Source of the DNA: Anaerolineae bacterium
GTDB lineage: Bacteria; Chloroflexota; Anaerolineae; Aggregatilineales; Phototrophicaceae
DNA: 64,000 nucleotides
Reading direction: 5' to 3'
Assembly: GCA_023382675.1 (NCBI GenBank)
Contig: JAHDWN010000005.1
Coordinates: 55,407-119,406, forward strand
Made by a program: the position numbers and the translations under genes. Shown here piece after piece: positions 6,875-18,319 of this stretch. Each line of letters opens with the position of its first letter. Position 1 is the stretch's first letter. The notes under the pieces are model-generated. The model searched no databases and was not told the DNA's origin. It saw only the letters and a program-made list of their open reading frames with translations.

Positions 6875-6895
6875 CCTGTCATCGAATTCAAGACC

Positions 6896-7001
6896 CAGGG
6901 CAATTGTAGGAAATAGGATTCACGGGTTATAAGGGGTGTCTGTAGTAGGGGCGCATCATGATGCGCCCCTACACCGCGAGGATTTTGATGCGATTGTCCT
7001 G
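6896..7001. mobile_element. MITE of the CAGGGCAAT family, copy 1 (106 bp)
   Basis: Ends are CAGGGCAATTG on the left and CGATTGTCCTG on the right (imperfect terminal inverted repeats). The element is flanked by a perfect 10-base direct repeat ATTCAAGACC at 6886-6895 and 7002-7011, which reads as a target-site duplication. It carries the 28-base palindrome at 6945-6972 and no coding sequence. It shares ends and interior stretches (CGGGTTATAA, AGGATTTTGATGCGATTG), inverted, with the copy at 16133-16285. Confidence 0.85.
6945..6972. repeat. 28-base perfect palindrome inside the MITE
   Basis: Arms GTAGGGGCGCATCA and TGATGCGCCCCTAC meet with no spacer. The identical palindrome recurs at 16205-16232, and a sibling with a different interior occurs at 23796-23823. 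Confidence 0.9.
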
Positions 7002-7082
7002 ATTCAAGACCTTTTTCGCTTTACGCGAGAAACTGGCGCACAATACGATCATTCCCCTTTGTCAACGGCCCGGAGATGACCT

Positions 7083-11522: not shown

Positions 11523-12992
11523 ATGCGCCTTCGTCTGGGTCTACTGTTCGTTTTACTCGCCATTGTGCTGCCGACAGCCGCATTCGCCCAGGATGCGCTG
11601 CCCGATCTCGGTGGCCGCACAGTGACCGTCGCGGTTGAGAATGCCTACCCGCCCTTCAACATGATTGATGAGACCTCCGGCGAAGGTGTCGGTTGGGATT
11701 ACGACACGATCAACGAAATCTGCGCGCGCCTCAACTGCACGCCGGAATACATTCAGACATCCTGGGACAGTATGCTGCTATCGGTCGCCAATGGTGAGTT
11801 CGACATTGCCGCCGACGGCATCACCATCACCGAGGAACGCGCTCAGAGCGTCGACTTCTCGATCGGCTATGTCGCTGTCAGCCAGGTACTGCTGACCAAG
11901 ATCGGCGAAGCACGTTTCGACACGGTCGCCGAGTTCGTCGCCAACCCCGATCTCGTCATCGGCACGCAGATCGGCACGACCAACTACAACACCGCCACCC
12001 AACTTGTGGATGAGAGCCGTATCCAGGCCTTCGATCAATTCGGCGTGGCTGTCCAGGCGCTGATCAATGGCGACGTGGACGCGGTTATCATCGACAGCAC
12101 CGCCGGTCAGGGCTACGTCGGCGAGAACGCCGATCAGGTCGTCGCGATGAACGAGAGCATCCAGTCGGATGAACTCGGCTTCGCCTTCCCCAAGGGCAGC
12201 GATCTGGTTGAGCCTTGGAACGCCGCCCTGCAGAGCATGATGGCGGACGATACGCTGACGCTGATCAATGCCAGGTGGTTCGCGCCGGTGCTGCCCGATC
12301 TCGGTGGCCGCACAGTGACCGTCGCGGTTGAGAACGCCTACCCGCCCTTCAACATGATTGATGAGACCTCCGGCGAAGGTGTCGGTTGGGACTACGACAC
12401 GATCAACGAAATCTGCGCGCGCCTCAACTGCACGCCGGAATACGTCCAGACATCCTGGGACAGCATGCTGCTCTCGGTCGCCAACGGTGAGTTCGACGTC
12501 GCGGCTGACGGCATCACCATCACCGAGGAACGCGCTCAAAGCGTCGACTTCTCGATGGGCTACATCTCGGTCGATCAGGTGCTGCTGACCAAGATCGGTG
12601 AAGATCGCTTCTCGACCGTGCAGGAATTCGTTGACAATCCCGAACTCGTCATCGGCACGCAGATCGGCACGACCAACTACAACACCGCCACCCAACTTGT
12701 GGATGAGAGCCGTATCCAGGCCTTCGATCAATTCGGCGTGGCTGTCCAGGCGCTGATCAATGGCGACGTGGACGCGGTTATCATCGACAGCACCGCCGGT
12801 CAGGGCTACGTCGGCGAGAACGCCGATCAGGTCGTCGCGATGAACGAGAGCATCCAGTCGGATCTGCTTGGCTTCGCCTTCCCCAAGGGCAGTGACCTGG
12901 TAGCAGGATTCAACGCCGCGCTCCAGTCGATGATCCAGGACGGCACACTCGAAAAAATCAACGGCACGTGGTTCGCGCCGGCAGGCATGTAA
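11523..12992 (+). CDS. Secreted solute-binding protein with two near-identical family 3 domains
   Basis: 489 residues: a signal peptide ending AFA|QD, then two complete extracellular solute-binding family 3 domains (polar amino acid type). Domain 1 runs about residues 26-256 and domain 2 about 257-489; both begin LPDLGGRTVTVAVENAYPPF. The DNA repeats with a 693-base period, and 219 bases (11952-12170 and 12645-12863) are identical. ATG at 11523 follows CAGGAGGAA. A strong terminator follows the stop, and the likely partner permease starts 257 bases on. Ordinary family members have one domain. It probably delivers amino acids to an ABC importer. Confidence 0.93.
   Translation: MRLRLGLLFVLLAIVLPTAAFAQDALPDLGGRTVTVAVENAYPPFNMIDETSGEGVGWDYDTINEICARLNCTPEYIQTSWDSMLLSVANGEFDIAADGITITEERAQSVDFSIGYVAVSQVLLTKIGEARFDTVAEFVANPDLVIGTQIGTTNYNTATQLVDESRIQAFDQFGVAVQALINGDVDAVIIDSTAGQGYVGENADQVVAMNESIQSDELGFAFPKGSDLVEPWNAALQSMMADDTLTLINARWFAPVLPDLGGRTVTVAVENAYPPFNMIDETSGEGVGWDYDTINEICARLNCTPEYVQTSWDSMLLSVANGEFDVAADGITITEERAQSVDFSMGYISVDQVLLTKIGEDRFSTVQEFVDNPELVIGTQIGTTNYNTATQLVDESRIQAFDQFGVAVQALINGDVDAVIIDSTAGQGYVGENADQVVAMNESIQSDLLGFAFPKGSDLVAGFNAALQSMIQDGTLEKINGTWFAPAGM
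11598..12980 (+). repeat. In-frame 693-bp tandem duplication
   Basis: Unit 1 starts at 11598 and unit 2 at 12291, both coding LPDLGG. The middle-to-late part is identical over 219 bases, while both ends carry scattered substitutions. That pattern fits recent duplication or ongoing gene conversion. Confidence 0.9.
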
Positions 12993-14919: not shown

Positions 14920-15909
14920 CTACGGCAATTGCACCCAATAAATATCCGGCGCGAACATGGTGTGGACGTATAAACGATTATCCGGCGTGATCGTCAGTCC
15001 GGCCAGCGGCGCGGATAGCTCGGTGAAGAGCACCACCTCGACCTCGGAGTTGCCGCAGCCGCCCTGCTCGATACACGCTTGCGGATCGACCCGCCCGATC
15101 ACCCCGCGCGTGCCCAGCGCATAGGCGAAATAGAGCTGCCCGTCCGCGTCGAGCGCCAAACCGGTGACGTTCTGCACCCCGCTTACAATCGTACCCCCCG
15201 CCTCGCTGACCGGCGTCTCGGCATCCGCCGTCTCGCGCGGATACCACTCGATAGCGCGGCGCGTGCTGCCGTTGTTGCCGACGTAGATCAGATCGCCAGC
15301 GACGACTATGCCAGTCGGGTTGGCGAGGTTATCGACGACGGTGCGCAAATCGCCCTCGCGCGTGACAGCGACCAGCGTATTGCCGAGCAGATTGGTGATC
15401 AGAAACGCATCGTCGCTGACGGGGGCGATGCCCCATGGCCCTTCGAGGCCGCCCGCAATCGTCTGCGTGTTCCCCGGCCTGACGCGCACAAGCTGGTTCA
15501 TCTGGAAATCCGGTGCCCAGAGCACGGCGCGTTCGTCTTCGCCCATTTCCGCGTAGATCATATGCGCGTTGCGGATGCCGCCCGCATAGGTGATCGTGCG
15601 CCCGGTCTCGGCTTCGATCTGGTAGATGGTGAAATCGCCGGAACAGGCCGTGTAGAGCAGCCCCTCCAGGAAGGTGATCCCGTTCGGGCGCTGGACGTTG
15701 CCCGTCAGCACGGTCAGATCGGACTGCGTGCTCGGCTGCGCTTGCGCGCGCTGTGGCCGCGCGGTCGCGGTCGGGGATGGCGCGACGGTGGGTGTCTTGC
15801 TCGGCGCGGGTGTCGGCGTGGCGTCATCCTGCGCGAAAGCAACGGCAGACAGCATCAGGCTCGCAGACAGCGCGAGCATCACGAACAAACCACGAAAGCT
15901 CAGGTTCAT
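14920..15909 (-). CDS. Secreted NHL/SMP-30-like beta-propeller protein
   Basis: 329 residues. Signal peptide ends AFA|QDD, followed by a Pro/Thr linker (ATPTPAPSKTPTVAPSPTATA), then repeated propeller blades: RPNGITFLEGLLYTACSG, GPWGIAPVSDDAFLITN, NPTGIVVAGDLIYVGNNG, VTGLALDADGQLYFAY, LAGLTITPDNRLYVHT. Five to six blades fit an NHL or gluconolactonase-like propeller. No catalytic metal site is obvious, so it may be a binding or scaffold protein. ATG at 15909 is favoured for the compact signal peptide. It faces the GNAT gene. Confidence 0.8.
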   Translation of the reverse strand: MNLSFRGLFVMLALSASLMLSAVAFAQDDATPTPAPSKTPTVAPSPTATARPQRAQAQPSTQSDLTVLTGNVQRPNGITFLEGLLYTACSGDFTIYQIEAETGRTITYAGGIRNAHMIYAEMGEDERAVLWAPDFQMNQLVRVRPGNTQTIAGGLEGPWGIAPVSDDAFLITNLLGNTLVAVTREGDLRTVVDNLANPTGIVVAGDLIYVGNNGSTRRAIEWYPRETADAETPVSEAGGTIVSGVQNVTGLALDADGQLYFAYALGTRGVIGRVDPQACIEQGGCGNSEVEVVLFTELSAPLAGLTITPDNRLYVHTMFAPDIYWVQLP

Positions 15910-16051
15910 AGAAGCACTACTCAAGGTACAGACACAATTGCCAGCGTATCTTATCCCGTTTTGACGCGGCGGGGCGTTTTATCACCAAACTTTCAGGTGA
16001 GATAACGCCGGCCACGTGCTCGAAGCATCGGGCTGACCACATCTACGTCAC

Positions 16052-16378
16052 CAGGGCAATTGCATCAAATCTCGCCGAATTGTCACAACAGACCAAGACA
16101 GGCCTGTAACGGCGCCCAACGGGGCTGCCACCCAGGGCAAACGCATCAAAATCCTCGATGGGTTCTTAATGGTTCATAGTGTATCGCAAAGGGTGATTTC
16201 TTCGTAGGGGCGCATCATGATGCGCCCCTACAGACACCCAGAGACCCTTTATAACCCGTGGTTCCTGTTTCATGCGATTGCCCTGGGCTGCCACCGTGCC
16301 GGACACGCCGCTGCGGGTCCCTACAACATCGTTGTGACATTTTATGAGCCAGTAAATGATTTTGATACGTTTGCTCTG
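16052..16378. mobile_element. Degenerate CAGGGCAAT-family element hosting a nested copy
   Basis: Left end CAGGGCAATTGCATCAAA and right end GATTTTGATACGTTTGCTCTG are imperfect complements and resemble the ends of the 16133-16285 copy. No flanking duplication is visible, consistent with age. Without the nested 153-bp insertion and its 10-base duplication it would be about 164 bp. Confidence 0.55.
16133..16285. mobile_element. MITE of the CAGGGCAAT family, copy 2 (153 bp)
   Basis: Ends CAGGGCAAACGCATC and GATGCGATTGCCCTG-type complement (observed right end CATGCGATTGCCCTG). Flanked by a perfect 10-base duplication GGCTGCCACC at 16123-16132 and 16286-16295. Contains the same 28-base palindrome as copy 1, at 16205-16232. 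Non-coding. Confidence 0.88.
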
Positions 16379-16400
16379 AAATATTCCTACGAATTTTGTT

Positions 16401-16655
16401 AGGGCTGTTGCAAAGTCGCCCGCCAGTGGCTCGAAGCCGCTGGCTACCGAGGCAAAGCCTGCTGAAAGCAGGCTGCCAGAGCGTATGTGTTTGACCAGCC
16501 ACCTTCCAGGTGGCTTCCCGTGTGCCAGCCCGACCGTTCGACGGTCGGGCGCTGCGCTTGAAAGCCCTTCTCCACGTAACCGAAGGTCGCCGAAGGCTGG
16601 GAGAAGGATTGAGAATGTGGGTTTCACAGCGCAATCCTGACTTTGCAACAGCCCT
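16401..16655. mobile_element. 255-bp MITE with 17-bp perfect inverted repeats and 12-bp target duplication
   Basis: Left end AGGGCTGTTGCAAAGTC (16401-16417) and its exact complement at 16639-16655. Perfect direct repeat ACGAATTTTGTT at 16389-16400 and 16656-16667. The interior has no gene but four short hairpins in a row. The end sequence resembles the CTGTTGCAAA core of IS6-family ends, but that family makes 8-base duplications, so the mobilising transposase is uncertain. Confidence 0.9.
16422..16550. repeat. Second tandem hairpin cluster (inside the 255-bp MITE)
   Basis: Four hairpins with three-base loops, each closed by T and A: GCCAGTGGCT/AGCCGCTGGC (16422-16444, loop CGA, one G-T pair), GCCTGCT/AGCAGGC (16457-16473, loop GAA), AGCCACCT/AGGTGGCT (16497-16515, loop TCC), GCCCGACCGT/ACGGTCGGGC (16528-16550, loop TCG). 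Design echoes the 5325-5442 cluster. Confidence 0.8.
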
Positions 16656-16738
16656 ACGAATTTTGTTGATTTTCTTGAGATTCGCTACACTTCATTACGA
16701 AGTATTCCACAGGCACCCCACTGTTCGAGGAGTAAATC

Positions 16739-18319
16739 ATGCGTTCGCGTCTCTTGGCACTTGGTTTCGTGTTCCTTGTCTGCCTGGTGCTGTCCATCTC
16801 GATGGTCAGTGCCCAGGACCCCAGCGTGCTCCGCATCCTAAGCTATCCAGATATTCGTACGGCAGACCCCCACGTTGCCTATGAAACGGAAACGTGGCCG
16901 ACAGCCGCCCTTTTCTATATCGGGCTTGTCCGCTGGTCGGACGACAACACCGAAATCGTTCCGGCGTTGGCAGACGAGTACTCGATCAGCGATGACGGGC
17001 TGGTCTACACCTTCCACCTGCGCGATGGGGTGAAATTCTCCAACGGACGCGACATCACGCCTGAAGATGTGAAATACTCCTTCGAGCGTATGTTCCGCCC
17101 GGAAACAACGTCGCCCACCGCCTACATGTTTGAAGCGATCAGTGGCGCGGCCGCATTCGTCGATGGCAGCGCAGATTCGATTAGTGGCATCCAGGTCGTG
17201 GACGACCGCACAGTCACCTTCACACTCGATTTCCCGGTGTGGTCGCTGATCCAGCGCTTTGCCCTGCCGCCTGGTTTCATCGTGCCGCCGGAAGCAGACG
17301 AGGTTGCCGCCGCCGCGGGCACGACCATCGCCCAGATGCCATTAGGGGCAGGCCCATTCGCCCTCGAAAGCTGGCAGTCAGGCGTCATGATCACCGGCTC
17401 GCGCAATCCTTACTACTACCTGCCGGATCGTCCGATTTTCGACCGCTTCGAATTGGAACTTGGCCTCGAACCTTCCGTTGGCATCCTGCGCATGGAAGCC
17501 GGTGAAGCCGATATCGCGCTCGATTTCGTGCCGAACTCGGAATATCCGCGTATCAGCACCGATCCCGTGCTCTCTGAACAACTGCTGCCGACGGCGGGTT
17601 TCCCGAACGTCGATTACATGATCTTCAACACCAACATCGAACCGTTTAACAATGTCGATGTGCGCCACGCGATGAATCTGGCGATTGATCATCAGCGGCT
17701 CGTTCAGATCCTCAATGGCCGCGCGGTGCCTTCGGAAGGCCCCATTCCGCCGTCGGTTTTGGGCAACAATCCCGATCTGCCGCCGCTCCCTTATGATCCG
17801 GATGCCGCACGTGCATTGCTGGCCAGCGCGGGTTACGCCGATGGCTTCACAGCCGAACTGCTGACCAACAATGACCCGACCAACCTGTCGGTTGCGCAGG
17901 CATTGACAGCAGATTACGCTGCAATTGGAATCACCATCAATTTGACCTCGGTCGATAATTCGGTTTTCCTCGATACCGTGATCAACCAACCCGATTCCCT
18001 GCAACTGGTGCTGACCAACTGGTATCTAGACTACCCTGATCCGTCGAACATCTGGGAACCGCTTCTGGCCTGTGGTGGCTCTTATAACTGGGGTGGATAC
18101 TGCAACGAAGACCTGGAAGCCCAGTTTGCGGAAGCCAACGCCAACCCGCCGGGCGATGCGCGTTGGGCGGCCTTCAACGCCTTTGAGGCGTCGATTGCGG
18201 CGGATTATCCGTGGGCATTCCTCGTCCATCAGATCAACTACTACTTCACCAGCACGCGCGTGAATATACCCACCGATCCGGCCATTCTGCTGCGCTGGGA
18301 TGCTGCGTCCTTGAAGTAA
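16739..18319 (+). CDS. Peptide/oligosaccharide ABC transporter substrate-binding protein (SBP family 5)
   Basis: 526 residues, signal peptide ending VSA|QDP, then a full family 5 binding protein: ALADEYSISDDGLVYTFHLRDGVKFSNGRDITPEDVKYSFERM is the characteristic N-lobe, followed by MIFNTNIEPFNNVDVRHAMNLAIDHQRLV. It should bind peptides, or possibly sugars or opines, and present them to the two permeases that follow. ATG at 16739 follows GAGGAG. First gene of a five-gene operon running to 22204. The 255-bp MITE ends only 83 bases upstream and may bear on its promoter. Confidence 0.93.
   Translation: MRSRLLALGFVFLVCLVLSISMVSAQDPSVLRILSYPDIRTADPHVAYETETWPTAALFYIGLVRWSDDNTEIVPALADEYSISDDGLVYTFHLRDGVKFSNGRDITPEDVKYSFERMFRPETTSPTAYMFEAISGAAAFVDGSADSISGIQVVDDRTVTFTLDFPVWSLIQRFALPPGFIVPPEADEVAAAAGTTIAQMPLGAGPFALESWQSGVMITGSRNPYYYLPDRPIFDRFELELGLEPSVGILRMEAGEADIALDFVPNSEYPRISTDPVLSEQLLPTAGFPNVDYMIFNTNIEPFNNVDVRHAMNLAIDHQRLVQILNGRAVPSEGPIPPSVLGNNPDLPPLPYDPDAARALLASAGYADGFTAELLTNNDPTNLSVAQALTADYAAIGITINLTSVDNSVFLDTVINQPDSLQLVLTNWYLDYPDPSNIWEPLLACGGSYNWGGYCNEDLEAQFAEANANPPGDARWAAFNAFEASIAADYPWAFLVHQINYYFTSTRVNIPTDPAILLRWDAASLK

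Follow-up and report, generated by a model that had tools for sequence, protein, structure and literature searches.

Introduction

According to the excerpt of PMC3542288 that deals with bacterial type I MITEs, insertion sequences whose ends match those of the MITEs presumably mobilise them in trans. Among the matches listed in a literature search, no title or opening of an abstract describes an ISAs1-driven MITE in Chloroflexota. Here we report a candidate for such an element in an Anaerolineae bacterium. The window, i.e. the whole 64-kb stretch of DNA that was analysed (C5:55407–119406), belongs to a MAG of 6.4 Mb in 110 contigs that is 96.46% complete (the source MAG, labelled G000). It contains an element that is very probably a non-autonomous MITE of the ISAs1 family, in which 18-bp ends of the YAGGGCTGTTGCAAAGTC sub-type enclose hairpin-rich DNA devoid of coding sequence; its mobilisation in trans is presumed.

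Results

Ends, boundaries and coding content of the element

The 17-mer AGGGCTGTTGCAAAGTC occurs without mismatch at 16401–16417 (plus strand) and at 16639–16655 (minus strand), and these are the sole matches in the 64-kb window even when up to three mismatches are allowed (chance expectation 0.08). They correspond to the perfect 17-bp inverted ends described in an earlier reading of this DNA made from its letters only (hereafter the sequence-only reading), which are thereby borne out. The same reading proposed a 255-bp element with a 12-bp target duplication. While ACGAATTTTGTT is indeed present on both flanks of 16401–16655, statistics on 65 elements (see below) set the target duplication at 10 bp, and the base pair next to the 17-mer belongs to the end. 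The corrected element spans 16400–16656 (257 bp); its terminal inverted repeats are 18 bp long, and the target duplication, CGAATTTTGT, has 10 bp. Its parts, together with two further ISAs1-type elements of the window, are as follows.

6896–7001, no strand assigned: third ISAs1-type MITE, 106 bp, degenerate ends; class-common ISAs1 end
16133–16285, no strand assigned: second ISAs1-type MITE, 153 bp, ends CAGGGCAAACGCATCAAA / CAGGGCAATCGCATGAAA; class-common ISAs1 end
16390–16399, plus strand: target duplication, left copy, 10 bp, CGAATTTTGT; length set by the 65-element statistics
16400–16417, plus strand: left terminal inverted repeat, 18 bp, TAGGGCTGTTGCAAAGTC; 18/18 match with the right end
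16418–16550, plus strand: four-hairpin array, a separate dispersed repeat; recognised by copies elsewhere, stems and fold
16551–16638, plus strand: MITE right interior, common to relatives; similar to copies in G000 and G002
16639–16656, minus strand: right terminal inverted repeat, 18 bp; complement of the left end
16657–16666, plus strand: target duplication, right copy, 10 bp, CGAATTTTGT; exact copy of the left one

Of the ORFs that are 80 aa or longer, three extend into the element. As each of them crosses one edge and none of the three has a Pfam match, the statement that no coding sequence lies inside holds. The perfect ends and the perfect duplication are compatible with a possibly recent insertion, as the sequence-only reading proposed. 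For the downstream flank, the best-scoring match in the 15 genomes of the same genus (the window itself apart) was found in G007; at 68% identity it is too distant for a search for an empty site by comparison of the intergenic site.

A MITE family sharing the end

Thirteen matches to the end, at up to two mismatches, are present in the source MAG, where paired copies of 184, 185, 218 and 408 bp exist besides that of the window. Within the genus, 5 of 15 genomes carry the end at no more than one mismatch, most matches (54) being located in G008; within the order, the exact end was detected in 10 of 154 genomes. In G007, G008, G013 and G034, several of the matches are near contig ends, and longer copies are unreadable at such places. 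A family of multiple copies that has these ends in common, shows target duplications and contains no internal transposase substantiates the identification of the element as a MITE. In G013, copies at L086:5141–5511, L087 and L088 are interrupted by another repeat starting with AGGCTTGTCCGATA, and two of them (L087 and L088) are located at contig ends.

For statistics on the family, 65 distinct end pairs were gathered from the collected loci by their ends alone. The set excludes pairs with fewer than 20 bases of flank, more than five mismatches over both ends, or no end at one mismatch or less; identical flanks entered it a single time, and decayed copies on contigs C64 and C69 of the source MAG, seen by eye, lie outside it. 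Three of the 65 elements are complete insertion sequences, and the rest measure 72–408 bp. Directly outside the 17-mer, the left side has C or T in 63 of the 65 elements and the right side has G or A in all 65. The two flanks agree with an identity of 0.68–0.82 at ten positions as opposed to 0.32 and 0.35 at the adjoining ones. It follows that the ends are 18 bp and the duplication 10 bp long. Outside the 18-bp ends, an exact repeat of 10 bp is found in 26 elements, of 9 bp in six and of 8 bp in one, and one of 11 or 12 bp in none; the remaining 32 elements have no exact 8–10-bp duplication. The 33 elements that do have one compare with a mean of 0.5 and a maximum of 4 in 1000 shuffles of the flanks.

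A perfect 12-bp repeat outside the 17-bp ends occurs in two of the 65 elements, that of the window and one other. Taken alone, the window copy would thus speak for a true 12-bp duplication made by an IS4-type transposase, and the source MAG contains two DDE_Tnp_1 (PF01609) transposase-domain matches that could be called upon as well. Such an origin is nevertheless very unlikely, given the poor agreement at positions 0 and 11 across the family (the values of 0.32 and 0.35 above, against 0.68–0.82 between them) and the ISAs1 transposases encoded by complete elements with these ends. The 65-element statistics reject a 12-bp duplication. In the window element, the 18th base pair of the ends is T/A and the bases past the 10-bp repeat are A and T; the repeat appears to be 12 bp long because these match by chance.

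Complete elements with the same ends encode ISAs1 transposases

A scan of genome contigs for the exact 17-mer yielded at least 120 stretches, and counts derived from it are lower bounds. Among the matches listed, three complete elements combine the ends with a long frame. Two are from Nocardiopsis metallicus (L152 and L223; 1286 bp, 381-aa frame) and have identical 17-bp ends, matching at 17/17 positions on both sides. The third, from a Ktedonobacter MAG (L236; 1304 bp, 366-aa frame), has ends that match at 17/17 and 15/17 positions, with two mismatches at one end. NCBIfam model NF033564 (transpos_ISAs1) is matched by L152 with 194 bits and by L236 with 217 bits (cut-off 70). The search for a full transposase-bearing element with matching ends, which the sequence-only reading had recommended, hence succeeded in other species. 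Among the matches listed, 12 pattern loci have an ISAs1-like ORF, and in 11 of these the ORF lies at most 150 bp inward from an exact end; in L164 the two are far apart. Of the three proteins used as queries in this comparison, two were drawn from those same loci.

Independently of the end studied here, we also analysed 33 ISAs1 loci from the genus and the class. Strong inverted repeats (at least 16/18) are present at 16 of them and absent from 17, and AGGG occurs in both arms of 14 of the 16. When AGGG was required, ends could be paired at 24 of 45 ISAs1 loci, seven of the 24 paired elements originating from one genome (G027); exact 8–10-bp duplications flank 15 of the 24 and were not found at the other nine. 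From the AGGG arms of the strong repeats and the 8–10-bp duplications at ISAs1 loci, we read both the terminal YAGGG and the length of the duplication as ISAs1 features, with CTGTTGCAAAGTC as a putative sub-type of the inner end. In the class sample, 89 of 396 genomes have an ISAs1 match above the cut-off.

Because complete elements with the same ends encode ISAs1 transposases, the helper most likely belongs to the ISAs1 family rather than to IS6 or IS4. The IS6-like and IS4-like helpers put forward earlier find no support here, and the duplication measures 10 instead of 12 bp. The ends of the window element share a core, CTGTTGCAAA, that presumably resembles IS6-type ends, and an IS6-family derivative could be postulated on this basis. 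Insertion sequences of the IS6 family duplicate 8 bp, unlike the 10 bp measured by the family statistics, and ISAs1 is the family to which the complete elements bearing these ends belong, which makes an IS6 origin exceedingly improbable.

The helper in the source MAG and its relatives

No ISAs1 transposase was detected in the source MAG (96.46% complete), either at an E value of 0.001 or at 10. Likewise, G008 with its 54 end matches has none at E 10. In the genus (15 genomes), an ISAs1 transposase above the cut-off is present in G001 only; two fragments in G013 score below it. The G001 element was rejected as the direct helper since its end differs (CAGGGCGAACGCATGAAA). Among the ten genomes of the order with the exact end, nine (G000, G002, G007, G008, G034, G040, G057, G071 and G138) yielded no more than two weak ISAs1 matches at E 10 (E 0.22 in G071 and E 0.29 in G002), and the tenth is G013 with its two fragments. 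The complete elements L152, L223 and L236 have duplications of 8–9 bp, not 10, and none is from the class of the source MAG; they belong to other classes or phyla. Viral contigs scanned for the end yielded five stretches and no pair of ends. As no ISAs1 transposase was found in the MAG, the helper may have been lost, may lie outside the bin among unbinned sequence, may be foreign or may have been present only for a time.

Other ISAs1-type elements in the window

Two further elements of the window have the ISAs1 end that is common in the class. The second MITE (16133–16285), located 114 bp left of the first, is flanked by a perfect 10-bp duplication, GGCTGCCACC, at 16123–16132 and 16286–16295. 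The third (6896–7001) has a perfect 10-bp duplication, ATTCAAGACC, at 6886–6895 and 7002–7011; its middle, GTAGGGGCGCATCATGATGCGCCCCTACA, also occurs within the second MITE. A lone ISAs1-type end, CAGGGCAATTGCATCAAA, is present at 16052–16069, and the scan of the window revealed no duplication-bearing partner for it. Elsewhere in the window, the halves of a 489-aa ORF (11523–12992) are nearly word-for-word repeats, and the product may be a fused pair of solute-binding domains.

Interior of the element

The right interior and right end are 76–84% identical over 53–105 bases to one copy in G000 and three copies in G002, and 64–72% identical to three further G000 copies. The left interior (16418–16550) is unlike these MITE relatives and corresponds to a dispersed repeat of four hairpins, which was found, whole or in part, at 27 of the 28 places examined (the window included) and also at places in G002. 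Three hairpins with exact stems are located at 16456, 16497 and 16528, and the first hairpin contains a G-T pair in the predicted fold. The fourth hairpin was aligned for 13 of the 21 array copies, to the exclusion of L005 and of seven copies in which this hairpin is longer. Its stem reads ACCG...CGGT in three of the 13 and ATGC...GCAT in ten (L010 with a broken pair), so that three pairs differ between the two versions in both of their bases.

No gap separates the left end of the MITE from the array, and AGTCGCC spans the junction of the two. AGTCGCC also precedes the array in an unrelated copy (L004), and the window copy therefore looks like a replacement of the left half of the MITE by the hairpin array, i.e. 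like a chimera of two kinds of repeats. The route of this replacement is an inference.

One could also regard the ends and the array as a single RNA or regulatory element whose flanking repeat arose by chance. The strong predicted fold (a raw value of -137.7 kcal/mol for 257 bases) would be compatible with this, as would the position of the element, whose end lies 82 bp upstream of a gene for a family-5 solute-binding protein (SBP_bac_5). An Rfam search of 15900–17000 gave no match at the gathering score, on which ground a known RNA family was rejected. Since, moreover, array and ends each also occur without the other, and duplications exceed the shuffled control (33 of 65 against a mean of 0.5), a single RNA or regulatory element is highly improbable.

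Hairpins related to the array flank a Y1 transposase gene at one of the eight Y1 loci examined. This locus, L326:1252–1965 (from contig C32 of the source MAG), comprises a frame for a 141-aa Y1 transposase at 1441–1863 and hairpins at 1252 and 1290 on one side and at 1911 and 1943 on the other. The left pair resembles hairpins 3 and 4 of the array (85% over 61 bases), while the right side, when inverted, resembles hairpin 3 (92% over 24 bases) and has a stem of different sequence in the place of hairpin 4. At the other seven loci, similarity to the array does not extend beyond 12–13 bases. With 90.7 bits for transpos_IS200 (cut-off 55) and 26.9 bits for REP_Tyr_transpos (cut-off 80), the L326 protein is assigned by profile score to the IS200/IS605 type and falls under the REP-transposase cut-off.

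IS200-type genes at two more loci, L325 (G002, contig C54) and L330 (G000, contig C32), are bracketed by another pair of hairpins, GCCGACCGGTCAACCGGTCGGC and GCCGACGAGTTGACTCGTCGGC or a near variant. Judging from these two loci, different transposases could each have their own hairpins.

Discussion

The element is otherwise an ordinary MITE to which the chimeric interior adds some interest. We propose that a DDE transposase of the ISAs1 family, acting in trans, would bind both 18-bp ends and insert the element with a 10-bp stagger, the repair of which would leave CGAATTTTGT on each side. The left interior would have been swapped for a four-hairpin repeat related to the hairpins on either side of an IS200/IS605 transposase gene. 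A more elaborate scheme is a chimera of dual mobility, in which ISAs1-type ends moved as double-stranded DNA by a DDE transposase and an array processed as single-stranded DNA by an IS200/IS605-type HUH transposase would each spread the other; we consider this unlikely.

For a MITE family of several Chloroflexota genomes, a most likely helper family, the end length and the duplication length are now defined, and the 17-bp end of this family recurs unchanged in insertion sequences from Actinomycetota. The window copy also illustrates that a perfect-looking 12-bp repeat in a single copy can mislead where the family shows 10. The nested array and the related hairpins beside an IS200-type gene provide a lead on how hairpin repeats may spread in Chloroflexota.

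Compared with type I MITEs as portrayed in the excerpt of PMC3542288, the window element is alike in being short, non-coding and multi-copy and in having IS-matching ends and target duplications; it is unlike them in its foreign hairpin array as left interior and in that the helper was not found in the MAG. IS200/IS605 elements and REP/BIME repeats, as far as the excerpt of PMC6006769 describes them, resemble the interior only, namely by the dispersed hairpins and the bracketed Y1 frame on C32. Unlike in the REP systems of that excerpt, the bracketed transposase falls under the REP_Tyr_transpos cut-off, and mobility of the array is putative. Relative to the ISAs1 family (NF033564), the window element differs by its length of 257 bp and its lack of a transposase, and from the ISAs1 loci of the class, whose common inner end is CAATYGCATC-like, by CTGTTGCAAAGTC. 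It shares with that family the terminal YAGGG and the duplications of 8–10 bp, and its 17-bp end is that of the Nocardiopsis elements and of one end of the Ktedonobacter element.
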